Source: Burkholderia contaminans
GTDB taxonomy: Bacteria; Pseudomonadota; Gammaproteobacteria; Burkholderiales; Burkholderiaceae
Assembly: GCF_029633825.1 (NCBI RefSeq)
Contig: NZ_CP090641.1
Location: forward strand, 620,001 to 684,000
DNA length: 64,000 nucleotides
Direction of reading: 5' to 3'
The notes under the pieces are model-generated. The model made no database searches. It was not told the DNA's origin and was given only the letters and a program-made list of their open reading frames with translations. How positions within the stretch are numbered: position 1 is the first letter of the stretch; each line of letters begins with the position of its first letter. Of this stretch, positions 1,103 through 47,347 are shown piece after piece. The translations under genes were made by a program, and so were the position numbers.

Positions 1103-1132
1103 GATGCCTCGCGACGGGTTAAACTGACGCGC

Positions 1133-1163
1133 AGCATAAAAGTTGAAGTTAACTTCAAGTCAA
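1133..1163 (-). promoter_or_regulatory. SoxR-type promoter for the RND operon
   Basis: Reading the minus strand, TTGACT (1163-1158) is followed by a 19-bp spacer and TATGCT (1138-1133). A spacer of 19-20 bp is the hallmark of MerR/SoxR-activated promoters. A perfect 16-bp palindrome, TTGAAGTTAACTTCAA (1143-1158), fills most of the spacer, where SoxR binds in E. coli soxS. It closely resembles the known sox box, whose core is also centred on GTTAAC. The adaptor ATG lies about 30 nt downstream. Confidence 0.85.
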
Positions 1164-1182
1164 GTTTTCCCGGAGGGGCAAC

Positions 1183-1662
1183 ATGGGTATCCAGGAGACA
1201 CCGCAATGGCCGCTGCTGTCGATTCGCGAAGTGGCCGCGCGCAGCGGCGTGCCGGCGTCGACACTTCGGTTCTACGAGACGCGCGGGCTGATCAAGTCGC
1301 ATCGCAACGGCTCGAGCCACCGCCACTATTCGCGCGCGGTGCTGCGGCTGATCGCGTTCATCGTGTTCGCGCAGAAGATCGGCTATTCGCTCGACGAGAT
1401 CGCCGAGCAGCTCGTCAGCCTGCCCGCCGACACCGCGCCGAGCAACAAGGACTGGCAACGGCTGTCGCGCGGCTGGAAGCAGCGTGTCGCGAGCCGGATC
1501 GAGGAGCTGCAGCGCCTTTACATCAACCTCGACGAATGCATCGGCTGCGGCTGCCTGTCGCTGAAGCGCTGCAAGCTGACGAACCCGGAAGACCGCGCGG
1601 GCCGCAACGGGCCCGGCGCACGGCGCTGGCTCGGCGACAAGCCGCCCACGGATATCGAATGA
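1183..1662 (+). CDS. soxR: Redox-sensing MerR-family activator SoxR
   Basis: Transcription activator of 159 residues that senses redox-cycling compounds through a [2Fe-2S] cluster. The N-terminal MerR helix-turn-helix is plain (IREVAARSGVPASTLRFYE, about residues 12-30), followed by the dimerisation helix. The four cluster cysteines are present in CIGCGCLSLKRC (about residues 125-136), which separates SoxR from other MerR proteins. The ATG at 1183 is preceded by GGAGGGG. It is divergent from the RND adaptor gene. In non-enteric bacteria SoxR usually controls efflux and oxidoreductase genes directly, without SoxS, and this arrangement fits that. Confidence 0.95.
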   Translation: MGIQETPQWPLLSIREVAARSGVPASTLRFYETRGLIKSHRNGSSHRHYSRAVLRLIAFIVFAQKIGYSLDEIAEQLVSLPADTAPSNKDWQRLSRGWKQRVASRIEELQRLYINLDECIGCGCLSLKRCKLTNPEDRAGRNGPGARRWLGDKPPTDIE

Positions 1663-1667
1663 CCGGC

Positions 1668-1784
1668 GGGCCGGGCGCGGCGCGCGACGATCGCCACGCG
1701 GTTCCCGTCTTCGATCGGCCGGCGCGCAGTCGCGAACCCGATGCTGCTAGATCCGCCCTCCCTAATGTTGACAATCGATGACAT
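1668..1784 (-). pseudogene. Remnant of an SDR oxidoreductase N-terminus
   Basis: From the ATG at 1784 the minus strand reads about 39 residues resembling the NAD(P)-binding start of a short-chain dehydrogenase: GGSSSIGFATARR then EDGNRVAIVARR, matching the family pattern TGxxxGIG plus the first beta-alpha-beta unit. The conserved Thr of TGG is replaced by Glu. Similarity stops abruptly where the sequence abuts the end of soxR. It faces the LysR remnant at 1858, as expected for a decayed divergent LysR-SDR pair. The match is short and was judged by eye, so confidence is moderate. Confidence 0.42.
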
Positions 1785-1857
1785 TGGAATTCTGGGCAGC
1801 GCAGTGCGATAGGTAAAACAAGAATTCAGTGATCCAGCGGTACGCGAAAGGCATCGC

Positions 1858-2057
1858 ATGATCGATCTGCGCCGGTTCAGGCGGTTCATCGCGGTCGCCG
1901 ACACGTTCAGCTTCCGGCGCGCGGCCGAGCGGCTGCACATGGCGCAGCCGCCGCTCAGCGCGGCGATGCGCAAGCTCGAGGACGAGCGGGCGTCGACGCG
2001 CTGCGCGACACCACGCGCCACGCGGTGCGCGAACGGGGGCTCGCGCTGGTGACGTGA
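1858..2057 (+). pseudogene. LysR-family regulator remnant with a large internal deletion
   Basis: The first 41 residues are a canonical LysR winged-helix start (FIAVADTFSFRRAAERLH, then QPPLSAAMRKLE). After GAGGAC at about 1980 the frame drifts into nonsense and stops at 2052. In the next frame the last 22 codons read like a LysR C-terminus (VDALRDTTRHAVRERGLAL) and end at TGA 2057. The simplest reading is loss of about 250 internal codons, including the whole effector domain. The product could not work as a regulator. Confidence 0.75.
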
Positions 2058-2072
2058 CCGCCCGCGCGGCGC

Positions 2073-2726
2073 TCAGCCGCCGAGGATGTTGAGCGCGACC
2101 GTGAGCACGGCCTGCTTGAATTCCTGCTGCCGCGTGGGCAGCGACGTGAACTCGCGAATCATGTGGCTGTACGACACGGCCGAGCCGACCGCGCTCGCGA
2201 CCATGAAGAACAGCACGTCGGGATCCGCCGCGCGAATCTCGCCGGCTTCCACTGCCTCCGCCAGCAGCGGGAACATCACGTCGCGGTACGGGCGGACGAG
2301 CCGCTCCTGCAACCGGTCGAGCCGCACGCCCTCCTCGGTCGCCGCCGTCGAGAAAAACATGCCCAGGTCGGGCTCGTCGAACTCGTGCTCGACACACAGC
2401 TCGATCGCGCGCCGCACACGCTCGCGATGCGGCAGCGACGATGTGCGCAGCGCGCGCATCGCGTCGAACATCGGTTCGGCCAGCTCGACGATCTGCTCGA
2501 CCACCGCCAGCCACAGCGTTTCCTTCGTCCCGAAATGGTGCGCGATCAGCGCCGCGTCGACCCCCAGTTCGCGCGCGACTTCGCGCACGCTCGTCGCGTC
2601 GTAGCCACGCTTCGCAAAGGTTCGGCGCGCCGCCCGCAATATCACGTCCGGCCCCACGGACGCCCCGGCCAGCGGCCGTCCTCGCATCCGGCGCTTGGCC
2701 GGCTCGCGCTCAGTGACTTCAGCCAC
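2073..2726 (-). CDS. TetR/AcrR-family repressor
   Basis: Repressor with an N-terminal TetR helix-turn-helix (ILRAARRTFAKRGYDATSVR then LGVDAALIAHHFGTKETL) and a helical ligand-binding C-terminal half. I chose the GTG at 2726 because GGAGAG lies 9 nt before it; an upstream in-frame ATG at 2786 has no ribosome-binding site. The chosen form has 217 residues, usual for the family. It is divergent from the NADH dehydrogenase gene, and a perfect 14-bp palindrome overlaps that gene's leader, so it probably represses the dehydrogenase and perhaps itself. The inducer is unknown. Confidence 0.88.
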   Translation of the reverse strand: MAEVTEREPAKRRMRGRPLAGASVGPDVILRAARRTFAKRGYDATSVREVARELGVDAALIAHHFGTKETLWLAVVEQIVELAEPMFDAMRALRTSSLPHRERVRRAIELCVEHEFDEPDLGMFFSTAATEEGVRLDRLQERLVRPYRDVMFPLLAEAVEAGEIRAADPDVLFFMVASAVGSAVSYSHMIREFTSLPTRQQEFKQAVLTVALNILGG

Positions 2727-2814
2727 GTCTTCCTGCTCTCCTTGAATGATTCGGATACCCCTGTTCCGGCCCCGCTCGAGCGGCATCGAACATCGGGTGA
2801 CCTGCCCCGCTCCG

Positions 2815-2868
2815 TTGACACGCGAAGCCGGGAAGCGCTAGGATCATACCTTATTCATCACGTGATGA
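2815..2868 (+). promoter_or_regulatory. Promoter and candidate TetR operator of the NADH dehydrogenase gene
   Basis: TTGACA (2815-2820), an 18-bp spacer and TAGGAT (2839-2844) form a sigma-70-like promoter. Just downstream, TCATCACGTGATGA (2855-2868) is a perfect 14-bp palindrome placed between the expected transcription start and the ATG at 2876. A bound repressor there would block early elongation or initiation. The neighbouring TetR protein is the obvious candidate; that link is inference. Confidence 0.6.
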
Positions 2869-2875
2869 TTTATAC

Positions 2876-4168
2876 ATGACAACCCCTACACGCATCGTCA
2901 TCGTCGGTGGCGGCATCGCCGGCCTGCAGCTCGCCACCCGCCTGGGCGAGCGCCTCGGCCGGTCCGGGCGCGCCCAAGTGACCATCGTCGACCGCAGCCC
3001 CACCCACATCTGGAAGCCGATGCTGCATACGATCGCGGCCGGTACGCGCGACGTGCAGCAGCAACAGGTGATCTTCCTCGCCCATGCGCGTGATCACGGC
3101 TACGCGTACCAGCCCGGCGAACTGACGGGGCTCGATCGCGCGCGCCGCCGCGTACAGCTCGGCGAGATCCGCTCGCAGGACGGCGAACTCGTGCTCGAAG
3201 CACGCGAACTCGAATACGACGTGCTGATCCTCGCGCTCGGCAGCCAGGCCAACGATTTCGGCGTGCCGGGCGTGCGCGAGCACTGCTATTTCATCGACAG
3301 CCAGAAGCAGGCCGAGACCTTCAACGAAGCATTGCGGATGCGCGTATTTCGCAGCATCGCGCGCGACGAGCCGTTCCGCGTCGCGATCGTCGGCGCCGGC
3401 GCGACCGGCGTGGAACTCGCGGCGGAGCTGAGCCGCCTGCTGGAAGTAGCACAGGCGTATGGCGACGCGACGGTGCGCGAGCGGCTGCAGCTCACGCTGC
3501 TCGAGAGCGGCCCGCGCATCCTCGCCGCGTTTCCGCCGCGGATCTCCGCATCGGCGCAGCGGCGGCTCGAACAGATCGGCTTTCATGTGCTGACGTCCAC
3601 TCGCGTCACATCCGCCGACGCGAACGGCTTTCACTACGGCGACGGTTCGTTTGCGGAAGCGGACCTGATGGTCTGGGCAGCCGGCGTGAAGGCGCCCGAT
3701 TTCATGCAGGCGCTCGACGGGCTCGACACGAATCGCGCGAACCAGATCGTCGTCGGGCCAACGCTGCAGGCAACCGGCGACGAGCACGTGTTCGCGATCG
3801 GCGATTGCGCGAGCCTGCTGCCCGACGGGCACGAACGGCCGCTGCCGCCCACCGCGCAAGTCGCGACGCAGCAGGCCGAGCATCTTGCAAAGCACCTGCC
3901 CGCGTGGCTCGACGGCCAGCCGATTCCGCCGTTCGCATTCCACGATTTCGGCGCGCTCGTGTCGATCAGCGACTACGACGCGTTCGGCACGCTCGGGCAG
4001 TTCGGGTTCTTTCGCGGCGGCTTCATCCAGGGGCGCTTCGCGCAATTCAGCCACCTGATGCTCTACCGGCGGCACCAGCAGGCGCTGCACGGCTTCTCCA
4101 AGGCGACCCTGCTGTGGATCGCCGAACGGATCAACGGCTGCGTGCAGCCGCGCATCCGGCTCTTGTGA
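2876..4168 (+). CDS. ndh: Type II NADH dehydrogenase (NAD(P)/FAD-dependent oxidoreductase)
   Basis: Non-proton-pumping NADH:quinone oxidoreductase of 430 residues, bound peripherally to the inner membrane. It has two Rossmann dinucleotide-binding motifs, IVIVGGGIAGLQLA (about residues 7-20, FAD) and VAIVGAGATGVELAAELSRL (about 168-187, NADH). The second FAD motif is FAIGDCASL near residue 305. The quinone-site segment PPTAQVATQQAEHLAKHL (about 322-340) matches NDH-2 enzymes. The length is typical. Control by a dedicated TetR repressor is less common than for housekeeping ndh, so it may serve a special redox condition; a sulfide:quinone-type relative cannot be fully excluded. The following DUF3331 gene starts 45 bp on. 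Confidence 0.88.
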   Translation: MTTPTRIVIVGGGIAGLQLATRLGERLGRSGRAQVTIVDRSPTHIWKPMLHTIAAGTRDVQQQQVIFLAHARDHGYAYQPGELTGLDRARRRVQLGEIRSQDGELVLEARELEYDVLILALGSQANDFGVPGVREHCYFIDSQKQAETFNEALRMRVFRSIARDEPFRVAIVGAGATGVELAAELSRLLEVAQAYGDATVRERLQLTLLESGPRILAAFPPRISASAQRRLEQIGFHVLTSTRVTSADANGFHYGDGSFAEADLMVWAAGVKAPDFMQALDGLDTNRANQIVVGPTLQATGDEHVFAIGDCASLLPDGHERPLPPTAQVATQQAEHLAKHLPAWLDGQPIPPFAFHDFGALVSISDYDAFGTLGQFGFFRGGFIQGRFAQFSHLMLYRRHQQALHGFSKATLLWIAERINGCVQPRIRLL

Positions 4169-4212
4169 TGCCGCGCGTGGCGGTGTTGCATAACGTTTCG
4201 AGGACAACCGAC

Positions 4213-4611
4213 ATGAACAACCGTTTAGCGCCCTGGCTCGTGACCGTCGCAGCGATCAGCAGCTTCGACATGCCGTCCGTCTCGTGGGGGGCGCCGCGGC
4301 GGCGCAGCGTCACGCGCGACCGGCTGCCGTCGTGGGACGCGACGAGCAAGCCGTCCATCAGCGTGCTCGAGCGGCCCACGGCCGACACCGTGATGATTTC
4401 CTGGCGCGACGCATGCACCGGGCATTACGGTTATCAGAAGTGGCGGCTGTTCACCACGCGCAAGCGCGGCGTGTGTGCGCTGTCGGGCCAGCCGATCGAG
4501 ATCGGCGACAGCGTCTATGCGCCGCAATTGCTCGGCTCGACGCCGGGCAACGCCGCCGCGATGGTGCTGGCCGCGTGCCTCGACGCGGCCCGCTCCGCCG
4601 AGGCGGCCTGA
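4213..4611 (+). CDS. DUF3331 domain protein
   Basis: Protein of 132 residues in a family of unknown function found mostly in Burkholderia. The conserved core is visible: SVLERPTADTVMISWRD, then a GHYG segment and GVCALSGQPIEIGDSVYAPQ. The ATG at 4213 is preceded by GAGGA. An alternative ATG at 4168, overlapping the ndh stop, would add 15 residues but lacks a ribosome-binding site. The CALSG segment with a single nearby Cys is not a recognisable metal site. No function can be assigned. Confidence 0.75.
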   Translation: MNNRLAPWLVTVAAISSFDMPSVSWGAPRRRSVTRDRLPSWDATSKPSISVLERPTADTVMISWRDACTGHYGYQKWRLFTTRKRGVCALSGQPIEIGDSVYAPQLLGSTPGNAAAMVLAACLDAARSAEAA

Positions 4612-4612
4612 A

Positions 4613-4635
4613 GGCCCGGGATTCGACCCGGGGCC
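4613..4635. terminator. Candidate bidirectional terminator hairpin
   Basis: GGCCCGGG (4613-4620), loop ATTCGA, then CCCGGGGCC (4627-4635) forms an 8-bp stem with one bulged G. It sits between the stops of two convergent genes (4611 and 4641), where a shared terminator is expected. There is no T-tract. Confidence 0.5.
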
Positions 4636-4640
4636 CTGCT

Positions 4641-5969
4641 TCAGGCAGAGGTGACGCGATCCGTATCGCGAACCGCCTCGTTCATGCGCGCTTCGGCTTC
4701 CGCATCCAGCCGCGCCGCATTCGCTTCGGCTTCTGCTTCCGGCATCAGCTCGCCTTCCCATTTCGCGACCACCGCGCTGGCGATCGAGTTGCCCACCGCG
4801 TTCGTGGCCGAACGGCCCATGTCGAGGAACGTATCGACGCCGAGAATCAGCAACAGCCCGGCTTCCGGGATGTTGAACTGGTGCAGCGTCGCGGCGATCA
4901 CGACGAGCGACGCGCGCGGCACGCCGGCCATGCCTTTCGACGTCAGCATCAGGATCAGCAGCATCGTGACCTGCGTGCCGAGCGACAGGTGAATGCCGTA
5001 GGCCTGCGCGATGAACAGCGACGCGAACGTGCAGTACATCATCGAGCCGTCGAGGTTGAACGAATAGCCCATCGGCATCACGAAGCTCGAGATCTTGCGG
5101 CGCACGCCGAAACGGTCGAGCGCATCGAGGATCTTCGGATACGCGGCTTCCGAGCTCGCGGTCGCGAACGACAGCATGAACGCTTCCTTGATCAGCACCA
5201 GCAGCCTGAACACGCGGCGGCCGAGGAACAGCAGGCCGGCCGCGACGAGCGTGCCCCACAGCAGGAACAGGCTCAGGTAGAAGTCGCCCATGAACACCGC
5301 GAACTTCAGCAGGATCGACAGCCCGTTGATCGCGACGGTCGACGCCATCGCCGCCAGCACCGCGAGCGGCGCGAGCTTCATCACGTAGCCGGTGATCTTC
5401 AGCATCACGTGCGCGAGCTGGTCGATCGCCGCGACGAGAATCTTGCCGCGTTCGCCGAGCGACGCGAGCGCCACGCCGAAGAACATCGAGAACACGACGA
5501 TCTGCAGGATCTCGTTGTTCGCCATCGCTTCCGCGATCGACTTCGGCACCATGTGGCCGACGAAATCCTTCAGCGTGAACTTGGACGTCGCCAGATGCGC
5601 GGACGCGCCGATATCCGGCAGCGGCAGCCCGAGGTTATCGCCCGGACGCAGCAGGTTCGCCATCAGCAGGCCGAGCAGCAGCGAGATCAGCGACGCGGTG
5701 ACGAACCAGCCGAGCGCCTTCACGAACACGCGCCCCACCGACGACGCGTCGCCCATGTGCGCGATGCCGACGACCAGCGTCGAGAACACCAGCGGGCCGA
5801 TCACCATCTTGATCAGCCGCAGGAACACGTCGGACACCAGCGAGATGTAGCCGGCGATCTCCGCCGCCGACTGTTTGTCCGGCAGTTGCGTATAGATCAT
5901 GTAGCCGATCAGGATGCCGGCCGCCATTGCGAGCAGGATCCAGCCTGCCGCGGACATTCGTTTGTTCAT
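4641..5969 (-). CDS. Dicarboxylate/amino acid:cation symporter
   Basis: Secondary transporter of 442 residues in the DAACS family (DctA/GltP type), inner membrane, with about eight membrane helices and two re-entrant loops. Family signatures are present: the serine-rich hairpin region SFATASSEAAYPKILDAL (about residues 263-280), MPMGYSFNLDGSMMYC (about 295-310), and FLDMGRSATNAVGNSIA near residue 400. Substrates in this family are C4-dicarboxylates or glutamate/aspartate, and the sequence alone does not decide. The C-terminal 40 residues are Ala/Glu-rich and hydrophilic. It is a single-gene unit, convergent with the DUF3331 gene. Confidence 0.9.
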   Translation of the reverse strand: MNKRMSAAGWILLAMAAGILIGYMIYTQLPDKQSAAEIAGYISLVSDVFLRLIKMVIGPLVFSTLVVGIAHMGDASSVGRVFVKALGWFVTASLISLLLGLLMANLLRPGDNLGLPLPDIGASAHLATSKFTLKDFVGHMVPKSIAEAMANNEILQIVVFSMFFGVALASLGERGKILVAAIDQLAHVMLKITGYVMKLAPLAVLAAMASTVAINGLSILLKFAVFMGDFYLSLFLLWGTLVAAGLLFLGRRVFRLLVLIKEAFMLSFATASSEAAYPKILDALDRFGVRRKISSFVMPMGYSFNLDGSMMYCTFASLFIAQAYGIHLSLGTQVTMLLILMLTSKGMAGVPRASLVVIAATLHQFNIPEAGLLLILGVDTFLDMGRSATNAVGNSIASAVVAKWEGELMPEAEAEANAARLDAEAEARMNEAVRDTDRVTSA

Positions 5970-38658: not shown

Positions 38659-39867
38659 TTAAAAGTTCACACGAATGCCGGCCATCACCGCCAGTTGCCG
38701 GCTCGAGTTGCTGTTCGCGAGCACCGGAATCTGCGCGTAGTTCACCGCGTTGCCGTCCGCGTCGGTGCCGAGCCCCTTCCCGCTCGCGATCTGGCCGATC
38801 GCGACCGCATACAGCGCCGTGCGCTTCGACAGGCTGTAGTTCGTGCCGACGTTCACCTGGTGGAACCGCGTCGTGCCGCGCCCGTCGGTATGCACGGCGT
38901 TGAAGATATAGGCGACGCCGCCCTGCAGCGCGGGCGTGAACATGTACGTGGCGTTCACCTCGCCGATATCGAACGTGAACGCCTGCGTGCGCGGCTGTGC
39001 GGCGGTCGAGAAATAGCGGCTGTCGCCGAGGCGCGTATGCGTATAGGTGAGCGCGATCGTCGCGTCGCCGAACGTGACCGACCCGCCCGCGCCGAACGCG
39101 CGCATCGAGCCGGCGTCCTGCAACAGGCAGACCATCGCGCCCGGGTTGCTGCACGCGAAATCGCCGATATAGCCGGTCGCGCCGCCGAGCGCCGCGTCGA
39201 GCGGCTGGTGCAGGTCGAGGTAGCCGATCGAGAATGCAACCGGCGCGCGCGTGTACGTCGCGGCGACCGCATAGCCGCGCTTTGCGGAGAAATCGCCGGC
39301 CTGCCCGCCGAAGCTGAACGTGCCGCCGAACGTGAGGCCGTTGAAATCGGCGCTGGTGAACTTCACCGCGTTGTTGAAGTTGAACGCGGCGTTCAGGTTG
39401 TCGACGTCGCCGAGGTGCGAGCCGTACGGCGTCGACCAGTTGTTGCTCGACACGTACGCACCGAGCATGTCGGTGTACGAGTCGTACTGGCGGCCGAGGC
39501 CGAGCGTGCCGATGCCGTCCTGGCGCAGCCCGACCCATGCCTGCCGGCTGAAGGCCGTGCCGCCCTGCAGCGCCTGCCCGTTCGCGGACAGAAACTGCTG
39601 CTCGAGCGTGAACACTGCATTGAGCCCGCCGCCAAGCGGCTCGGCACCCTGGAAGCCGAACCGCGACGGCACGAGGTTGCCGCCGCCCATCTGCCACGCA
39701 TGGCCGCCGCCCGTGCTGCCGTCGGCGCGCGTGAACTGCTGGTTCGTCGAGTAGATGATGCCGGTATCCACGGTGCCGTACAGCGTCACGCTGCCCGAGG
39801 TCTGCGCATGTGCGTGCATGCAGCCCAGCGTCGCCGCAGCCGCGGCCAGTCGTCGTCCAATCTTCAT
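38659..39867 (-). CDS. General trimeric porin (Gram-negative porin family)
   Basis: Outer-membrane porin of 402 residues. Short signal (LAAAAATLGCMHAHAQ), then the classic start SSVTLYG-like SGSVTLYGTVDTGIIY, SRFGFQGAEPLGGGLNAVFT, AFSRQAWVGLRQDGIGTLGL and GRQYDSYTDM. It ends in the C-terminal Phe of beta-barrel proteins (GIRVNF). The ATG at 39867 follows GAGGGGCGGG. A CAAATCGGCAAA element shared with the amine-catabolism genes lies 100 nt upstream, so it probably belongs to that regulon and lets the substrate through the outer membrane. Confidence 0.93.
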   Translation of the reverse strand: MKIGRRLAAAAATLGCMHAHAQTSGSVTLYGTVDTGIIYSTNQQFTRADGSTGGGHAWQMGGGNLVPSRFGFQGAEPLGGGLNAVFTLEQQFLSANGQALQGGTAFSRQAWVGLRQDGIGTLGLGRQYDSYTDMLGAYVSSNNWSTPYGSHLGDVDNLNAAFNFNNAVKFTSADFNGLTFGGTFSFGGQAGDFSAKRGYAVAATYTRAPVAFSIGYLDLHQPLDAALGGATGYIGDFACSNPGAMVCLLQDAGSMRAFGAGGSVTFGDATIALTYTHTRLGDSRYFSTAAQPRTQAFTFDIGEVNATYMFTPALQGGVAYIFNAVHTDGRGTTRFHQVNVGTNYSLSKRTALYAVAIGQIASGKGLGTDADGNAVNYAQIPVLANSNSSRQLAVMAGIRVNF

Positions 39868-39966
39868 GTCCCGCCCCTCTGTTGTCATCGATTCGCAGTG
39901 CAGATCGATGGAGTTGTCGATATGGGTGACAGGACTCTATCCAGCGAAAATTCAGGACCTCTATCG

Positions 39967-39978
39967 CAAATCGGCAAA
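39967..39978 (-). promoter_or_regulatory. Shared regulon element, copy 1 (porin)
   Basis: Coding-strand TTTGCCGATTTG, continuing CGATAG, 100 nt upstream of the porin start. Identical 12-mers precede the APC permease operon and the LuxR gene; a 9-of-12 match precedes the aldehyde dehydrogenase gene. Confidence 0.7.
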
Positions 39979-40034
39979 CAGTCGCATGTGTTGCCCGCGA
40001 GGTTGCCCGGCGGCGCCGTCGCGGCGCGCGCGTG

Positions 40035-40973
40035 TCATTCGGGGCGCGTCGTCTGCGACGGCAGCTCGCCGAACAGGTCGCGATACTCGCGCGCGAAATA
40101 GCCGAGGTGCGTGAACCCCCAGCTCGCGGCGGCCTCGCCGACGCCGAGCTGCTGCACGGGCGTCGTGCGCAGCAAGCGGCGCACCGCGTTCAGCCGGATC
40201 GTGCGCAGATAGCCGACCGGCGTGACGTCGGCCACGCGCTGGAAACTCGTTTGCAGCGTGCGGCGGCTGCAGCGCAGCGCGCGGCACAGTTCGAGCACGG
40301 TGACGGGTTCCTCGGGGCGGTCGCGCAGATGCTTCTCGCAACGGCTCACGATGTCGCTGTAGGTGGCGTGCGTGATGTCGCGGCGCTCGACGCCGATGCC
40401 CTGCTCGAGCGCATCGAGGAACATGCCGAGCATCGCGTCGCGGAACATCTTGCGGGTGGCCGCGTATTCGAGGTGGCCCGGGTTGCGCTGCGCATCGTCG
40501 ATCAGCGACGACAGCCGCACGCCGAGCGCGACGCCCTGCTCGTCGGACAGCCGCGTCACGTGGCGCAGCTTGCGTGCGCCGGATGCGCCGAATTCGGCTT
40601 CGCACAGCTCGTCGACCATGTCGGACGCCGCGCTGATCCCGACGAGCCCCATCCCTTCCGGCGTGTGGAATTCGAAATCCTCGCCCGCGCGCAGCGCGAG
40701 CAGCGCGTAGCCGTCGACGGGCTGGCCCTGGAACGTGCCCGCGAGCGGCACGGACAGCGGCACCGCGAGCGACGTGCGCCCGGCCGGCGCGAGCCCGGTT
40801 TGCGCGACACGCCGGTTGGTCGTTTCGCGGAAGAAGTGGAAATCGTCGTACAGCACCTGCGTGACGGTGCCCTTGAAGCGGCCCGGCGTCATCTGGCGGT
40901 AGACCTGATGCCAGCCCGCGATCGCGAGCCCGTGATCGTGCACGTCTTCGTGTGAGCGTGACTGGAACAGCAT
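40035..40973 (-). CDS. AraC-family transcriptional regulator (EutR/FeaR-like)
   Basis: Regulator of 312 residues. The N-terminal 190 residues are a sensing domain (TQVLYDDFHFFRETTNRRVA, LAVPLSVPLAGTFQGQ). The C-terminal AraC DNA-binding domain follows, with VTVLELCRALRCSRRTLQTS, RVADVTPVGYLRTIRLNAVR and EAAASWGFTHLGYFAREYRD. I chose ATG 40973, which sits 6 nt after GGAG; an ATG at 41030 would add 19 Arg-rich residues. It lies downstream of the permease and DUF3156-like genes in one direction, so it is probably in their operon. It likely responds to the amine or its aldehyde. Confidence 0.88.
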   Translation of the reverse strand: MLFQSRSHEDVHDHGLAIAGWHQVYRQMTPGRFKGTVTQVLYDDFHFFRETTNRRVAQTGLAPAGRTSLAVPLSVPLAGTFQGQPVDGYALLALRAGEDFEFHTPEGMGLVGISAASDMVDELCEAEFGASGARKLRHVTRLSDEQGVALGVRLSSLIDDAQRNPGHLEYAATRKMFRDAMLGMFLDALEQGIGVERRDITHATYSDIVSRCEKHLRDRPEEPVTVLELCRALRCSRRTLQTSFQRVADVTPVGYLRTIRLNAVRRLLRTTPVQQLGVGEAAASWGFTHLGYFAREYRDLFGELPSQTTRPE

Positions 40974-41033
40974 CGGCATCTCCGGTAAAACCCCTAAACG
41001 CGGCCGCCGGTTCCCGGCGCGCAACGCCATAGC

Positions 41034-41621
41034 TTACCCGTGCAAAATCCTGCGTAGTGCGGTTTCGAACGCGAGACAGGCCGCCGACAGCGCGCCGGCC
41101 TGCTCGCCCGTCAGGCGAACGTAGCGGCGGAACGACGGCATCCGGTTCACGACCTCGCTGCCGCCGAACGGCACGATCGCGAGCGTCCAGCGGCCGTCGC
41201 GTGCATCGATCGTACAGTGGGTCAGGTGCAGCGGCCGCAGCGCGTCGGCCAGCGACGGTTCGGCGACCAGCGCGGCCACCGCATCGACGAATCCGGGGTC
41301 GCATCCCGGCACGGCCACCGCGTCGATACCCGTGCTGCGCAGCCAGCCGGTCTGGCGCACGCGCGCGCTGCCCCGCATGGCCGGGCCGCACGCGGTGGCC
41401 GCCACCTTCACGCTGACCGTATGCATCAGGAACTGGCGGTCGACCCGCTCGTCGATGGTCACGCGCACGCCGTTCGGCAGCCGGGCCGTCAGACCGGCAG
41501 CTCCGTCGGCCTCGCGCTCGGCGCGCAGGTCGGCCAGCACGCGCGCGGCGAGCGCGCCGGGCCGATGGCTGGGCGGCGGTGCATCGGGCGCTGCGCGCCA
41601 GCGGGCGAGCGCGAGCTTCAC
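41034..41621 (-). CDS. Uncharacterised protein, DUF3156-like
   Basis: Protein of 195 residues starting at a GTG (41621) that overlaps the permease stop (GTGA), so translation is coupled. There is no signal peptide or membrane segment. Recognisable blocks are VDRQFLMHTVSVKVAATACG, VRQTGWLRSTGIDAVAVPG and GGSEVVNRMPSFRRYVRLTG. They resemble the DUF3156 family, which I recall beside amine or ethanolamine permeases in pseudomonads; this is from memory. Tight coupling suggests it helps the permease or the first catabolic step. It is not an ethanolamine ammonia-lyase subunit. Confidence 0.6.
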   Translation of the reverse strand: MKLALARWRAAPDAPPPSHRPGALAARVLADLRAEREADGAAGLTARLPNGVRVTIDERVDRQFLMHTVSVKVAATACGPAMRGSARVRQTGWLRSTGIDAVAVPGCDPGFVDAVAALVAEPSLADALRPLHLTHCTIDARDGRWTLAIVPFGGSEVVNRMPSFRRYVRLTGEQAGALSAACLAFETALRRILHG

Positions 41622-43120
41622 GATGCAACGTGCTCGTTGCGCAGCACTTCCTCGACCGGCACCGGCCTGAACGGATGCCGGCGCTGCACGACGAGCGTCC
41701 AGAACAGCGCGTACAGCGCGGTGAGCCCGAGCATCGCGCCGAACGGCACGTAGATGTCGCGCGCGTTCATGCCCGGCGGCGTGATGTACCAGATCGCCAG
41801 GATGATGCCGACGCTCGATACGATCTGCGGCAGCGGGAACAGCGGCGAACGGTACGGGCGCGGCAGGTCCGGGCGACGAATCCGCAGCATCACGACCGAT
41901 GCGGTGACGAGCAGGTACGCGGTGCCCCACGCGCAGGTCGCGGCGAGCACGAGGTGCAGGATGCTGTCGAGGTTGCCGTTGATCAGCCACGCGTGGAAGA
42001 TCGGCACGATCGCCGACGCGACGATGCCGACCACCGGCGTCTTGAAGCGCGGGTGCAGGTACGCGAAGCAGCGCGGCAGCGCGCCGTCGATCGCCATCCC
42101 GTACAGGATGCGCGGCAGCCCGGCCATCAGCGTGTTGATCGTCGCGGCGCCGGCGCACAGGAACGCGATGCCGAACCACACGCGGCCGAACGGGCCCAGC
42201 ACCTGCAGCGCGAACGCGGGAATCGCGCCCGGCGTGTCGAGCAGGTGCGTGAGGCCGTCGGGGCTCACCGGCACGTTCGCGACCTGGCGGCGGATCGCCG
42301 CGCCGTACAGGAACATGCAGATCGCGACGCCGACGAGGCCCAGCGCCATCGCGCGCGGAATCGTCTTGCCCGGCGCCTTCATTTCCGGCGCGAGCGGCGT
42401 GACGAACTCGCAGCCGACGAACATGAACATCGCCATCCCGACCAGCGACAGCACGGCCGGCACCGACGTGCCGACTTCCGAGCCGCCGAACCAGCCGTCG
42501 AGATGCACGGCCGGCGCGGCCGCGAGCCCGAGGATCCCGAAGATCATCAGCGACAGCCACATGCCGGCGGTCAGCACGATCTCGAGCTTGCTGAACACCT
42601 TGATGCCGATGATGTTGGTGATCGCGAACGTGACGACGAGGCCGACGCCGACGAGCCACGAGCTGTTGTGCTTCTCGAATGCCGCATTCAGCGATTCGAA
42701 ATTGACGAGCGCCATGATGCCGCTCAGGATCGTTTCCGCCGTGCCGGCGAACACGTGCACGAGGAAATACGCGGAGATCGTGCCGGTGATCGCCCAGAAG
42801 CGGCCGAGCCCGCACGACAGGTAATCGTAAACCGAGCCGGCCGTCGGCAGCATCGCGGCGGCTTCGGAGAAGGTCGTCGCCTGCGCCTGCATCATCACGA
42901 ACGCGATGATCATCGCGATCGCGAACGCCCAGCCGCCCATCCCGAAGCCCGACGTCGCGGTGAGAATCACCGGGCTCGCCATGATGAGGCCGACGGCGCT
43001 CGCCAGCGCGGTCGGAAAGCCGACCGCACCCGCCTTCAGCGCCGTTCCGCCGCCTGCTTCAGCCGGCGTGCCGGCGGGCGTGTCGCCCGCTGCGCCGGTA
43101 ACTCCTGACCATCCCGACAT
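41618..43120 (-). CDS. APC-superfamily amine/amino acid permease (ethanolamine permease-like)
   Basis: Inner-membrane permease of 500 residues with about 12 helices. APC features: VGLIMASPVILTATSGFGMG (first helix), TTFSEAAAMLPTAGSVYDYL, MFMFVGCEFVTPLAPEMKAP (helix 6 region) and GLPRILYGMAIDGALPRCFA. The ATG at 43120 follows AAGGAGA; a TTG five codons earlier is unlikely. The first 20 residues are Gly/Thr/Ala-rich. It heads a unit with the DUF3156-like and AraC genes, and the shared element lies 173 nt upstream. It probably imports the amine degraded by the neighbouring aminotransferase and dehydrogenase. Confidence 0.87.
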   Translation of the reverse strand: MSGWSGVTGAAGDTPAGTPAEAGGGTALKAGAVGFPTALASAVGLIMASPVILTATSGFGMGGWAFAIAMIIAFVMMQAQATTFSEAAAMLPTAGSVYDYLSCGLGRFWAITGTISAYFLVHVFAGTAETILSGIMALVNFESLNAAFEKHNSSWLVGVGLVVTFAITNIIGIKVFSKLEIVLTAGMWLSLMIFGILGLAAAPAVHLDGWFGGSEVGTSVPAVLSLVGMAMFMFVGCEFVTPLAPEMKAPGKTIPRAMALGLVGVAICMFLYGAAIRRQVANVPVSPDGLTHLLDTPGAIPAFALQVLGPFGRVWFGIAFLCAGAATINTLMAGLPRILYGMAIDGALPRCFAYLHPRFKTPVVGIVASAIVPIFHAWLINGNLDSILHLVLAATCAWGTAYLLVTASVVMLRIRRPDLPRPYRSPLFPLPQIVSSVGIILAIWYITPPGMNARDIYVPFGAMLGLTALYALFWTLVVQRRHPFRPVPVEEVLRNEHVAS

Positions 43121-43292
43121 CCCTGTCTCCTTCAAGTGTCGAACCGGGCCGCCGCCCCGCCGGCGGCCCGGGTTCCCTGCCTTGCGGTCAGCCCGGGGCG
43201 GCGCTTCGGCGCTTCGTTACCCGGGCTCCTTGTCGATCAAACGTCGATCCGATGTCGAAAAAATACGCAGGCAAAATAATCCGGTCATAGCC

Positions 43293-43304
43293 CAAATCGG
43301 CAAA
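43293..43304 (-). promoter_or_regulatory. Shared regulon element, copy 2 (APC permease operon)
   Basis: Coding-strand TTTGCCGATTTG followed by GGCT, 173 nt upstream of the permease ATG, in the 228-bp gap after the aminotransferase gene. The nearby AT-rich stretch (GCAAAATAAT, 43271-43280) could be promoter sequence. Confidence 0.7.
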
Positions 43305-43348
43305 CCGGCGGCAGCCGCGCTGCCCGCCGCCGGTGGGCCGTCGCGCGA

Positions 43349-44689
43349 TCACGCGAACGGCACGGCCTCGAAGCCCGCCGCGAGCGCGTCGACGATCCGG
43401 TCGAGCTGCTCGCGCTGGATCACGAGCGGCGGCGACAGGATGATCTTCGTGCCGACCGGGCGCACCAGCACGCCATTCTCGCGCGCGACTTCCGCGACCG
43501 CGTTCGCATAGCCCGAAAGCGGGTCGATCGGCTCGCGCGTGTCCTTGTTCGCGACGAGGTCGAGCGCGAGCATCAGGCCCTTGCCGCGCACCTCGCCGAC
43601 CGCCGCGAAGCGTTCCGCGAACGGCTTCAATGCTTCGAGCAGGTACGCGCCCTGCTTCGCCGCGTTGGCCGGCAGGTCTTCCTTCACGACGATGTCGAGG
43701 CTCGCGATCGCGGCCGCGCAGGCGACCGGATGGCCCGCATACGTGTAGCCGTGCATGATCGCGCCGCCGAAATCGGCGTTCGCGGCGAACGCGTCCTCGA
43801 TCCGAGCGTTCACGACCGTCGCGCCGAGCGGCACGTAGCCCGACGAGATCCCCTTCGCGAGACACATGATGTCCGGACGCACGCCCCAGCCGCGGCTGCC
43901 GAACAGGCTGCCGCTGCGGCCGAAGCCCGTCACGACTTCGTCGGCGATCAGCAGGACGCCGTAGCGGTCGCACACCTCGCGCACGAGCGGCCAGTAGTTG
44001 GCCGGCGGCACGATCACGCCGCCCGCGCCCTGGATCGGCTCCGCGATGAACGCGGCCACCGTGTCGGGGCTCTGGAACTGGATCTCGCGTTCCAGCATCT
44101 CCGCGCAGATCCGGCCGAGTTCTTCGGGATCCTGCGTGAACGGGTTGCGATACAGCCACGGCGTCTCGACGTGGAAGCAACCCGGCAGGTTCGGCTCGTA
44201 GTTGCGGCGGAATACCGTGTTGCCGTTCACCGACGCACCGCCGAAGTGCGTACCGTGATAACCCTGCTTCAGCGAGATGAACTTCGTGCGGTCGGCCTGG
44301 CCGCGCACCTTCCAGTACTGGCGCGCGATCTTCAGCGCGGTCTCGATCGAGTCGGAGCCGCCCGAGCTGTACAGCACGCGGCGCATGCCCTCCGGTTCGA
44401 GCAGGTCGATCACCTTCTTCGACAGCTCCTCCGCGCGCGGATGCGAAATGCCGTCGAACAGCTGGAAGTATTCGAGTTCGTCGAGCTGGTGCACGATCGC
44501 GTCCTTCACTTCCTGGCGGTTGTGGCCGACGTTCACGTTCCACAGGCCCGCGACGCCGTCGACGAGCTTCCGCCCTTCTTCGTCGAACACGTAGCAGCCG
44601 TCGCCGCGCACGATGCGGATCGGCTTGCGCTGTTTCATCTCGTTCGGGTGCAGCATCGGGTGCCAGAATTTCGCTTCGTTGTAGCTCAT
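43349..44689 (-). CDS. Class III (omega) aminotransferase
   Basis: PLP-dependent aminotransferase of 446 residues, likely moving an amino group from an amine to pyruvate or a keto acid and yielding an aldehyde. Motifs: DGVAGLWNVNVGHNRQEV, LYSSGGSDSIETALKIARQY (PLP phosphate site), FIAEPIQGAGGVIVPP, VLLIADEVVTGFGRSGSLFG (Asp pairing with the pyridine N), and the Schiff-base Lys in CLAKGISSGYVPLGA (about residue 283). The ATG at 44689 follows GGAG. Forty-two bases separate it from the aldehyde dehydrogenase gene, so one operon is likely. Close relatives act on beta-alanine, putrescine, taurine or aromatic amines; the substrate is open. Confidence 0.9.
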   Translation of the reverse strand: MSYNEAKFWHPMLHPNEMKQRKPIRIVRGDGCYVFDEEGRKLVDGVAGLWNVNVGHNRQEVKDAIVHQLDELEYFQLFDGISHPRAEELSKKVIDLLEPEGMRRVLYSSGGSDSIETALKIARQYWKVRGQADRTKFISLKQGYHGTHFGGASVNGNTVFRRNYEPNLPGCFHVETPWLYRNPFTQDPEELGRICAEMLEREIQFQSPDTVAAFIAEPIQGAGGVIVPPANYWPLVREVCDRYGVLLIADEVVTGFGRSGSLFGSRGWGVRPDIMCLAKGISSGYVPLGATVVNARIEDAFAANADFGGAIMHGYTYAGHPVACAAAIASLDIVVKEDLPANAAKQGAYLLEALKPFAERFAAVGEVRGKGLMLALDLVANKDTREPIDPLSGYANAVAEVARENGVLVRPVGTKIILSPPLVIQREQLDRIVDALAAGFEAVPFA

Positions 44690-44731
44690 TGCAGTCTCCA
44701 CTGTGGGATCGTTCGAGGTTGATGCCGCGCG

Positions 44732-46234
44732 TCAGTGCGCGATGCAGACGGATTTGGTTTCGGTGAAGCCTTCGATCGCGTACTGGCCGAATTCACGGCC
44801 GATGCCCGATTGCTTGTAGCCGCCGAACGGCATCGACGGGTCGAGCGGGATATGGCAGTTCACCCATACGGTGCCGGCCTCGATCTGCGGCACGAGGTTC
44901 ATCACGCGCTTCAGGTCGTTGCTCCAGATGCTGGCGGCGAGGCCGTACGGCGACGCGTTCGCGAGGCGCACCGCGTCGGCCGCGTCGTCGAACGGCACGA
45001 CGACGATCACCGGGCCGAACACTTCGTCGCGCACGATCGCGCTGTCCGGATCCGGATCGGCGATCACGGCCGGCTTCACGTAGTAGCCGGGCAGGTCGTC
45101 GGCCGGCGTGCCGCCCGCGAGGAACGTCAGGCCCGCGCGGCGCGCACCCTCGATGTGCTGGACGACCTTGTCGCGGTGGTGCGCGGACACCAGCGGGTTG
45201 ATCTGCGCGGTCGTGTCGAGGCCCGCGCCGAGCTTCATCGACTGCGCGACGCCCGCGAGGCCGTCGGCGAGCTGTGCGAACTTGCTGCGATGCACATAGA
45301 TGCGCGAAGCGGCCGCGCACACCTGCCCCTGGTTGAAGAACGCGCCGGCCGCGACACCGTCGAGCGCCTGCGCGACGTCGATGTCGTCGAGCATCACGAT
45401 CGGGTTCTTGCCGCCGAGCTCGAGCGAGAAGCGCGTCATGTTCTGCACGGCCGCCGCACCGACCAGCTTGCCGGTCGCGGTCGAGCCCGTGAACGAGATC
45501 TTCGCGATCGACGGGTGGCTCGCGAGCGCGGCACCACACACGCGGCCGCCGGTGACGACGTTGAACACGCCTGGCGGCACGCCGGCTTCGAGTGCGAGCT
45601 CGGCCAGACGCAATGCCGTGAGCGGCGTTTCCGGCGACGGCTTCAGCACGATCGTGCAGCCGGCCGCGAGCGCAGGGATCAGCTTCCACACCGCGATCAT
45701 CAGCGGGAAATTCCACGGCACGATCGCGGCGACCACGCCGACCGGCTCCTTGCGCGTATAGGCCGTATAGCGCGCGCCGGGCGGGAACGGGATCGACACG
45801 TCGAGCGTCTGGCCGGTGATCTTGGTCGCCCAGCCGGCCATGTAGCGCACGTATTCGACGCTCGCGCCGACCTCGATCGCGCGCGACACGTGGATCGACT
45901 TGCCCTGGTTCAGCGTTTCGAGCTGCGCGAGCGTTTCGGCGTCGCGTTCGATCAGGTCGGCGAGTTTCAGCAGGATGCGTTCGCGGTCGGCCGGACGCAG
46001 GCCGCTCCACACGCGGGTGTCGAATGCGTGCTTCGCGCTGGCGACCGCGCGGTCGACGTCGCGTTCGTCGGCGTCCGCGACGGTCGCAAGCCGCTCGCCC
46101 GTCGCGGGGTCGTACACGTCGAGCCGCGCGGCCGTGTGCGCGGGCTGCATTTCACCGTCGATGAAGAGGCCGAAATCGCGCGCAACGAAGGTGCGCACGG
46201 TGTCGCTGACGGCGACGAAATTCGTGGTGCTCAT
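44732..46234 (-). CDS. Aldehyde dehydrogenase (phenylacetaldehyde dehydrogenase-like)
   Basis: NAD(P)-dependent dehydrogenase of 500 residues. Motifs: VVAAIVPWNFPLMIAVWKLI, ISFTGSTATGKLVG (cofactor loop), the general-base Glu in SLELGGKNPIVM and the catalytic Cys in FFNQGQVCAAASRIYV. The end AGTVWVNCHIPLDPSMPFGG with GREFGQYAIEGFTETKSV matches the family. Overall wording is closest to FeaB/StyD-type phenylacetaldehyde dehydrogenases, but betaine-aldehyde or aminoaldehyde types are similar. With the aminotransferase just downstream it would turn an amine into an acid in two steps. A degenerate copy of the shared element lies 94 nt upstream. Confidence 0.9.
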   Translation of the reverse strand: MSTTNFVAVSDTVRTFVARDFGLFIDGEMQPAHTAARLDVYDPATGERLATVADADERDVDRAVASAKHAFDTRVWSGLRPADRERILLKLADLIERDAETLAQLETLNQGKSIHVSRAIEVGASVEYVRYMAGWATKITGQTLDVSIPFPPGARYTAYTRKEPVGVVAAIVPWNFPLMIAVWKLIPALAAGCTIVLKPSPETPLTALRLAELALEAGVPPGVFNVVTGGRVCGAALASHPSIAKISFTGSTATGKLVGAAAVQNMTRFSLELGGKNPIVMLDDIDVAQALDGVAAGAFFNQGQVCAAASRIYVHRSKFAQLADGLAGVAQSMKLGAGLDTTAQINPLVSAHHRDKVVQHIEGARRAGLTFLAGGTPADDLPGYYVKPAVIADPDPDSAIVRDEVFGPVIVVVPFDDAADAVRLANASPYGLAASIWSNDLKRVMNLVPQIEAGTVWVNCHIPLDPSMPFGGYKQSGIGREFGQYAIEGFTETKSVCIAH

Positions 46235-46327
46235 GGGCGTCTCGAGGATTGTCGTGGCTGGACCGCATGCGCACGGGCACGCGGGCGTCGTTCCACTGTA
46301 TCGACGAGGGATTGCGCGAGGTGAGCG

Positions 46328-46339
46328 CAAATTGGCAGC
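46328..46339 (-). promoter_or_regulatory. Shared regulon element, copy 4 (degenerate, aldehyde dehydrogenase)
   Basis: Coding-strand GCTGCCAATTTG followed by CGCTCAC, 94 nt upstream of the dehydrogenase ATG. Nine of 12 core positions match, and the GCTCAC extension is shared with the copy upstream of the LuxR gene. Confidence 0.5.
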
Positions 46340-46514
46340 GCGTGGGCGCTGGGGGGCGGGTTCCAACCCTGCGGGGTGGCGGCGGTCGACGCGGAACGCC
46401 GGCTGCGGGAGCGGTGCCGGTCAGCCGCTGACGTTCAGCAACACGAGTAGTGCTTGATATTCATCAGTCGGCGATCACGCAGGTTCGAATTCCGGATCGC
46501 AATTATCCGATGAA

Positions 46515-47255
46515 TTACAGGAACAACGCCCCGACCAGTTCCGTGCGGTTCGACACGCCGAGCTTGCGGTACATGCGCATCAGGTGCGTCTTGACGGTCG
46601 GCTGGCCCAGCGCGAGATCGCGGGCGATCTCCTTGTTCGAGCGGCCGTCGCGCACGAGGCGCGCGATCTGCTCCTCGCGGTACGTCAGCCGCTCCTCGCA
46701 GCCGATCCGGTGGATCCCGCGCCGCGCGCGCAGCAGCGGGCTCAGCGCGGCTTCGGCCACGGGCTGCAGCCGCGCGAGCGCGTCGATCTCGCCGGGCGCG
46801 AACCGCCCGCCCGTGCTGTTGCCGGCCGCGCCGCCGCGCGTGTCGGCCGCCCCGAAGCGCAGCAGCGAGAACGCGCCGACCGTGCGGCCGGCGTCGCGCA
46901 GCCAGATCTCGACGACGTCGGCCACGTCGTGCCGCCGCAGGAAACGGGTCCAGTACGCGGACGCGTCGCGTCTTTCGTCAGGCAATTGGGAAGCGAGCGT
47001 GACGACCGCGCGCTCGCCTGCCGCGCAGCGCGACGGATGCAGCGGATCGAGCATCCGGTAGCGCGCGACATAGGTGCGATGCATCGATTCCGGCATCCCG
47101 AACAGCTCGAAATCGGCCGGTTCGCCGCTCTGGTCGAGCCGGTAGAACACGATCGCGGACGGACTCGCGAACGCGTCGAACGCGTCCACGCAAGCACGCA
47201 GCGCGCGCAGCCAGTCGGCGGCGGCCGGGTCGGCGGGTTCGGATGGGGTCGGCAT
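46515..47255 (-). CDS. LuxR-family regulator (solo, GerE-type output)
   Basis: Regulator of 246 residues. The C-terminal LuxR/GerE helix-turn-helix is clear: LTYREEQIARLVRDGRSNKE then PTVKTHLMRMYRKLGVSNRT (about residues 192-235). The N-terminal 170 residues show no receiver Asp and no autoinducer-binding signature; a GAF/PAS-like sensor is possible. It stands at the head of the amine-catabolism cluster in its own unit, with the exact shared element 81 nt upstream. It is therefore the leading candidate (with the AraC protein) to bind that element and to autoregulate. Confidence 0.87.
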   Translation of the reverse strand: MPTPSEPADPAAADWLRALRACVDAFDAFASPSAIVFYRLDQSGEPADFELFGMPESMHRTYVARYRMLDPLHPSRCAAGERAVVTLASQLPDERRDASAYWTRFLRRHDVADVVEIWLRDAGRTVGAFSLLRFGAADTRGGAAGNSTGGRFAPGEIDALARLQPVAEAALSPLLRARRGIHRIGCEERLTYREEQIARLVRDGRSNKEIARDLALGQPTVKTHLMRMYRKLGVSNRTELVGALFL

Positions 47256-47335
47256 GGTGGAATCGGCTGGCGGGCGAACGTCACGAAGATCGAAGTTCGG
47301 GCCAGCCTACCGGCGCCGAAAAGCGCCGGTGAGCA

Positions 47336-47347
47336 CAAATCGGCAAA
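47336..47347 (-). promoter_or_regulatory. Shared regulon element, copy 3 (LuxR gene)
   Basis: Coding-strand TTTGCCGATTTG followed by TGCTCAC, 81 nt upstream of the luxR-type start. Between it and the gene a perfect 8-bp hairpin (ACCGGCGC at 47309-47316, GCGCCGGT at 47323-47330) lies in the probable leader. Confidence 0.7.

Follow-up and report, generated by a model that had tools for sequence, protein, structure and literature searches.

A conserved asymmetric element, probably the operator of a EutR-like AraC regulator, precedes the units of a putative amine-catabolism cluster in Burkholderia contaminans

Introduction

Which regulator could hold together the four predicted transcription units of a putative amine-catabolism cluster in Burkholderia contaminans, when two regulators, one of the AraC family and one of the LuxR type, are encoded within it? 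The window analysed here, that is, the whole stretch of DNA under study, is 64,000 nucleotides (nt) long and corresponds to positions 620,001-684,000, forward strand, of contig NZ_CP090641.1 (assembly GCF_029633825.1); the genome comprises 9,436,857 bases in 7 contigs. A first-pass annotation of this window had noticed a 12-mer, CAAATCGGCAAA, repeated in front of the cluster genes, and had proposed that either the LuxR or the AraC protein binds it. We report here that this 12-mer is the core of an asymmetric element of about 19 base pairs (bp), YTGCCRATTTGNGCTMAC, a form which includes a degenerate fourth copy. The comparison of related genomes indicates that this element is probably the operator of the EutR-like AraC protein (40035-40979), which would read it as one asymmetric site for class II activation.

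Results

The element and its copies in the genome

The exact 12-mer is found at 39967-39978, 43293-43304 and 47336-47347, where it had first been noticed, and nowhere else in the window. These three copies, all non-coding and all within the cluster, are also the only exact ones in the whole 9.44 Mb genome; the reversed control pattern has 0 copies. From the base composition of the window, 0.23 exact copies are expected per genome and 0.00018 per 7.4 kb, which bears out the earlier judgement that such a recurrence is very unlikely by chance. The 9/12 copy previously placed at 46328-46339 is also real, as it scores 16.3 bits and has orthologues in 33/33 Burkholderia loci. All four copies lie in non-coding DNA, in one shared orientation, and, as previously claimed, 81-173 nt before a start codon. 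The described downstream extension was correctly read too: the bases 3' of the 12-mer are GCTCAC in two copies and GCTATG in one, the porin copy having GATAGA.

The four copies, each with the -10-like hexamer that follows it, are:

47329..47347, minus strand: element copy 1, TTTGCCGATTTGTGCTCAC, 81 nt before the luxR start; 12-mer exact; 30.8 bits
47304..47309, minus strand: -10-like TAGGCT, offset 27 from copy 1; spacing conserved in relatives
46321..46339, minus strand: element copy 2, GCTGCCAATTTGCGCTCAC, 94 nt before the dehydrogenase start; 9/12 copy; 16.3 bits
46295..46300, minus strand: -10-like TACAGT, offset 28 from copy 2
43286..43304, minus strand: element copy 3, TTTGCCGATTTGGGCTATG, 173 nt before the permease start; 12-mer exact; 31.4 bits
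43260..43265, minus strand: -10-like TATTTT, offset 28 from copy 3
39960..39978, minus strand: element copy 4, TTTGCCGATTTGCGATAGA, 100 nt before the porin start; 12-mer exact; 32.6 bits
39934..39939, minus strand: -10-like TAGAGT, offset 28 from copy 4

The 12-mer with one mismatch is by itself not specific. When up to two mismatches are allowed, the window holds 4 matches against a shuffle mean of 2.88, i.e. not above chance, and with one mismatch the genome holds 33 further sites against 12 for the control. Specificity thus needs the longer element, and the strength of the case lies in the exact copies together with this longer element. The gap-free pattern TGCCRATTTGBGMTM has 5 matches in the genome, 4 of which are the copies of the cluster.

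The fifth match (L210:4057-4075, i.e. G000:C3:1457558; 24.7 bits), the sole other match to this pattern in the genome, was considered as a further target and rejected: it overlaps the 3' end of an open reading frame (ORF) beginning like a CoA-transferase, and its TAnnnT is found at offset 24, not 27-28. Matches resembling it exist in G003 and G046 (23.6 bits).

A near-fixed distance to a -10-like hexamer

In all four copies, a TAnnnT hexamer resembling a -10 box stands 27-28 nt downstream of the 12-mer, a feature that had escaped the first-pass annotation. If the T of TAnnnT is taken as -12, this spacing places the element at about -51 to -33. The same distance prevails in the 46 related loci described below: among the 93 distinct upstream sites that reach 10 bits, 81 have TAnnnT at offset 27 or 28, and any other offset accounts for 3 at most. 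The asymmetric site, fixed orientation and set distance to the -10 box that characterize a class II operator are thus all found, except before oxidase genes.

Conservation upstream of orthologous genes

Similarity to the AraC protein was used to fetch 79 loci. The 33 Burkholderia loci served as the training group, and the 46 others, from Paraburkholderia, Caballeronia, Trinickia, a Ralstonia metagenome-assembled genome, Neisseriales and some strains labelled Burkholderia, were scanned. The 19-column matrix was trained on 22 distinct sites of the former, upstream of luxR, permease and porin genes only; the dehydrogenase (9/12) copy was left out of the training. On the 46 loci, it finds 103 matches of at least 14 bits, none of them inside annotated cluster genes, and 88 lie within the 320 nt that precede an annotated gene, in 44/46 loci. 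By comparison, 60 column-permuted matrices give a mean of 0.2 upstream matches and a maximum of 5. The element is therefore conserved in front of orthologous genes, as a motif search over orthologous clusters, advised at the outset, could have revealed or denied, and this conservation supports the initial proposal of one copy per predicted unit, one shared cis element and one predicted regulon. The excluded copy behaves in the same way: upstream of the dehydrogenase gene in the training loci, the best match is the orthologue of the 9/12 copy in 33/33 cases, with at least 14 bits in 32 of them (9.4 bits in L134).

The exact 12-mer is present in 61 of 65 genomes of the genus and, among the matches listed, many genomes have 2-3 exact copies in which the luxR, permease and porin spacing is kept. 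Among the four genomes devoid of it (G015, G027, G063, G064), G027 has no AraC relative at an expect value (E) of 1e-30, G063 and G064 have only relatives of 31-38% identity, and G015, whose AraC is 54% identical, carries in its cluster two variant sites instead of the exact 12-mer. G014 holds one exact 12-mer, yet its AraC relative is only 39% identical.

Tandem arrays of an 8-bp unit, TTTGCCGA, also give many exact 12-mer matches, which are unrelated to the operator. They are located at G004:C8:269935-270010, G033:C2:398682-398725 and G035:C2:1094215-1094290, and also in G020 and G041; this repeat makes up part or all of the exact matches in at least these five genomes.

The element is also found with other gene sets. 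In Paraburkholderia and Trinickia, a flavin adenine dinucleotide (FAD)-dependent oxidase of the DAO family often replaces or joins the aminotransferase, often behind a copy of the element too, and in the Neisseriales loci holding both araC and dehydrogenase genes, the site lies between them, the two genes being divergent. A permease-oxidase unit found 16-18 kb from araC in both G076 and G112 (L213:6193-6211 and L214:6042-6060) is preceded by a 29-bit site with a correct -10 box, and is likely, from this arrangement, to be an extra regulon member. In G137 (L111, around 1-4826), the neighbouring ORFs of the cluster look by eye like what we take to be MMPL/RND, DUF1302 and DUF1329 genes, which would suggest a different substrate there.

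The cluster and its two regulators

On the minus strand, the genes follow each other in the order neutral zinc metallopeptidase, luxR, aldehyde dehydrogenase, class III aminotransferase, APC permease, DUF3156, AraC and porin. The last seven are:

46515..47255, minus strand: luxR, LuxR-type regulator of 246 amino acids (aa); GerE above cut-off; model resembling CviR, RhlR and SdiA; likely regulon target
44732..46234, minus strand: aldehyde dehydrogenase gene; nearest model phenylacetaldehyde dehydrogenase StyD, with a score under the StyD cut-off
43349..44689, minus strand: class III aminotransferase gene; NF005683 subfamily, above cut-off
41618..43120, minus strand: APC-type amino acid/amine permease gene; PF13520
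41034..41621, minus strand: DUF3156 gene; PF11354, 4.5e-39, in agreement with its earlier assignment
40035..40979, minus strand: AraC-family (EutR-like) regulator gene, 314 aa; HTH_18, 71.2 bits for a cut-off of 33.6; predicted binder
38659..39867, minus strand: Gram-negative porin gene, 402 aa; PF13609

Four units are predicted: porin; permease-DUF3156-araC; dehydrogenase-aminotransferase; and luxR. Because the aminotransferase falls in NF005683 and the nearest models of the dehydrogenase and of the AraC protein are StyD and EutR, a route from amine to aldehyde to acid seems a fair reading of the cluster. A second NF005683 aminotransferase, also above cut-off, is encoded in the same genome at G000:C3:1289407-1290753 (L221), where the exact 12-mer is absent.

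The AraC protein matches the NCBIfam EutR model, NF007522, over nearly its full length, with 173.4 bits for a cut-off of 319; it is therefore not EutR by this model. The C-terminal double helix-turn-helix (HTH) of the AraC type is present, its DNA-binding helices are nearly invariant in 20 sequences, and the PDB profile matches are 3mn2 and 3oio. The predicted model (mean predicted local distance difference test, pLDDT, 90.5) shows a domain rich in strands at the N-terminus, which cupin barrels match, and a helical HTH region at the C-terminus. The best fold matches are CuxR and ToxT, with a poor overall superposition (TM-score to query at most 0.42 for full-length chains). The genome also encodes a second EutR-like AraC protein, 34% identical (G000:C2:1030333-1031241; L219), near a gene that is dehydrogenase-like from its N-terminus. 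As no strong copy of the element is found in the 14 kb around it (best score, 13.9 bits), this second protein probably reads another site.

The LuxR protein is likely to be a LuxR-type receptor, because its predicted model (mean pLDDT 83.5) matches CviR, RhlR and SdiA, with whole-chain TM-scores below 0.5. Its residues D70 and P71 are invariant in 14/14 sequences, and its Autoind_bind match is under the cut-off (15.1 for 23). No LuxI is found among the eight cluster proteins scanned; LuxI was not searched for elsewhere in the genome. In a protein search, the best 120 of 1233 matches are all at least 89% identical over the match, and from Burkholderia where named; no distant relative is found among these best 120.

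AraC rather than LuxR tracks the element

To which of the two regulators does the element belong? In 150 genomes of the family, searched at E 1e-50 for AraC and at E 1e-30 for LuxR, AraC relatives are found in 29 genomes and LuxR relatives in 17, all of them AraC-positive. The gap-free pattern is present in 21/21 genomes with an AraC relative of at least 42% identity, in 0/8 genomes having only a 35-39% relative, and in 10/121 genomes without match (21/21 versus 10/129; Fisher, 2e-18). Four of these ten AraC-less exceptions were examined, and all four matches lie inside mechanically called ORFs.

The element also persists where luxR is missing. At E 1e-5, the AraC-positive genomes G112, G137 and G171 have, genome-wide, LuxR matches only in the C-terminal part with the DNA-binding domain; in these three genomes, and in G076, the element still precedes dehydrogenase, permease or oxidase genes. 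Likewise, 19 of the 46 loci have no luxR in the fetched flank, and 19/19 of these have a site of at least 14 bits, assigned in 17 to a listed gene. In G154, where about 2.3 Mb of the contig separate luxR from araC, luxR is still preceded by a 29-bit site with the -10 spacing.

The architecture of the site points in the same direction. The element has no dyad symmetry, since permuted columns equal or exceed its palindromic character in 87% of 1000 trials, and no second conserved half-site is detected within 40 nt upstream. A tandem direct-repeat AraC site was also considered and rejected, since this half-site is missing and the element has no internal direct repeat, permuted matrices doing equally well in 40% of 1000 trials. 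Being asymmetric and without partner half-site, the element suits a single AraC protein, which carries two HTH motifs, better than it suits a dimer of LuxR.

Discussion

Weighing the candidate regulators

The two candidate binders named at the outset have thus not fared equally: co-occurrence favours the AraC protein, while the conservation of a non-palindromic element without luxR speaks against the LuxR protein, and, as judged from sequence comparison, the choice in favour of the EutR-like AraC as the predicted binder appears largely settled. A LuxR solo binding the element and activating its own gene together with the catabolic units would agree with the position of luxR inside the cluster, behind a copy of the element, with the presence of AraC in 17/17 LuxR-positive genomes, and with the fact that LuxR-type activators often bind near -42. 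We nevertheless give it a slim chance and have rejected LuxR as main binder, as the element is kept in three genomes where LuxR similarity does not extend beyond the DNA-binding end and in every luxR-less locus, and is devoid of a dyad. The putative LuxR solo is, for these reasons, more likely a target than a binder. Alternatively, AraC could bind the element while LuxR, itself under AraC control, binds over or beside it as co-activator or repressor. Such an arrangement would make sense of the LuxR relatives found near AraC from Burkholderia to Aquitalea, Vogesella and Pseudogulbenkiania, and of the structured sensor domain predicted for LuxR; we see a small chance that it is right, as no column is conserved within 40 nt upstream past the edge of the site. 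A second, LuxR-specific dyad was also sought and rejected: the exact 5-nt inverted repeats shared by at least two promoters per locus are GC-rich patterns only, the best being TCGCG with gap 0, in 9/59 luxR-positive loci. It is, finally, hardly credible that an unlinked, global or housekeeping regulator uses the element and that its link to AraC merely reflects inheritance of the cluster as a block. Genes and sites are, indeed, mostly co-inherited, but the pattern is concentrated in AraC-positive genomes, the four examined exceptions being inside ORFs, and the sites follow araC into other gene sets (permease, FAD oxidase, porin) as well as to units lying at a distance of 16-18 kb or 2.3 Mb from it.

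Several points weigh against the AraC protein as the reader of the element, or against the generality of the regulon. The gap-free pattern and the 42% line were fixed after several of the genomes had been seen. The 46 loci were sampled by AraC similarity, with near relatives included, and comprise species of which a locus had been seen beforehand (e.g. L170, L176, L180, L190, L202). The cluster travels largely as a block, and co-occurrence is not causation; moreover, LuxR without AraC is found in none of the 150 sampled genomes. The absence of luxR is itself relative: at E 1e-5, G076 has a weak, near-full-length LuxR relative (35%, E 7e-13) and another match over residues 83-242 (34%, E 1e-9), and in five of the 19 luxR-less loci (L178, L184, L185, L186, L189), the strain has luxR in a second fetched locus. 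LuxR might, besides, act as a helper of AraC or have another element of its own. The spacing also has exceptions: TAnnnT is at 27-28 in 86/103 matches of at least 14 bits, and five luxR-less loci have sites before an oxidase gene without TAnnnT at this distance. Coverage is also incomplete: a site of at least 12 bits within 300 nt is found in 210/363 upstream regions scanned, i.e. 69/87 for the dehydrogenase, 52/59 for luxR, 37/49 for porin, 33/42 for permease, 11/23 for oxidase, 8/24 for second permease and 0/79 for araC genes. These counts are probably lower bounds for promoters, because operon members and mis-set starts are included, and the value for araC is most simply explained by its position as an inner operon gene.

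A proposed circuit

As to binding, activation, inducer, substrate and the role of LuxR, we infer the following. The AraC protein would bind each copy as a single site covering about -51 to -33 and, in a class II mode, bring RNA polymerase to the -10-like hexamer located 27-28 nt past the 12-mer. Its inducer could be an amine, or the aldehyde or acid product of this amine, sensed by the N-terminal barrel domain. AraC would then switch on the four units at once, with a positive loop through the permease-DUF3156-araC unit, because araC belongs to it. The porin may, as proposed at the outset, give the substrate its way through the outer membrane. The dehydrogenase-aminotransferase unit would convert the amine into the aldehyde and then the acid, and luxR would provide a second regulator acting downstream of AraC. 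One tentative possibility, on balance rather doubtful but worth stating, is a two-step circuit. An amine-responsive AraC would, via one rigidly placed operator, activate uptake, breakdown and a LuxR solo, so that a second, host- or neighbour-derived signal is heard only together with the amine, a pairing that would be kept from Burkholderia to Chromobacteriaceae, even with luxR about 2.3 Mb away.

Comparison with known systems

The AraC protein recalls EutR, the regulator of ethanolamine utilisation, by its match to the EutR model and its amine-related setting. It differs by its score below the EutR cut-off and by the transaminase/dehydrogenase route that the cluster appears to encode; no ethanolamine ammonia-lyase (eut lyase) is found among the eight cluster proteins scanned, the rest of the genome not having been searched for it. 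As to the mode of action, the MarA/SoxS type of AraC-family class II activators uses a single asymmetric site of about 20 bp next to -35. The element resembles such sites by its asymmetry, single orientation, near-fixed -10 spacing and likely -35 overlap. The difference is in the protein, as the cluster AraC is predicted from its model to have an N-terminal barrel sensor domain, which stand-alone MarA is not known to have.

The gene set is reminiscent of histamine catabolism, encoded by hin1 of Pseudomonas putida U (hinABCD) and hinDAC of P. aeruginosa, which, compared by description, likewise combines an APC-type permease (HinA), an aminotransferase (hinC) and an aldehyde dehydrogenase (hinD) with regulators (PMC8231116). 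In the sections of that source used here, the P. aeruginosa hin genes are controlled by the LysR-type HinK through its own operator, and neither an AraC-type regulator nor a porin is named in the hin set, the type of HinB and HinJ not being specified there (PMC8231116). Histamine was considered as a candidate substrate; the enzyme set is analogous only.

LuxR solos responding to signals other than acyl-homoserine lactones are described in the consulted part of PMC10134790, where PipR responds to an ethanolamine derivative and CepR2 is encoded beside an AraC gene. The cluster LuxR resembles them in that none of the eight cluster proteins scanned is a LuxI, and in its fold match to CviR, RhlR and SdiA. 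In contrast with PipR and CepR2, as they are presented in that part of the source, it is encoded among catabolic genes, behind a promoter with the predicted AraC element.

A literature text search with the 12-mer, its complement and two 11-mers returned, among the matches listed, no title on Burkholderia or on AraC/LuxR regulation, and no published description of the element was found in the literature searched by sequence and regulator topics. The operator thus appears to be real, well conserved and, as far as searched, undescribed; operator and regulon would be new, while the kind of regulator is known.

Significance

All these results provide a likely regulator, a compact regulon and an operator for an uncharacterised catabolic cluster of Burkholderia, Paraburkholderia, Caballeronia, Trinickia and Chromobacteriaceae. 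The specificity of the element suffices for the detection of new members, such as FAD-oxidase units and units remote from araC, and for close promoter prediction. Finally, AraC is likely to control a LuxR-type regulator, whose role thereby becomes directly testable.

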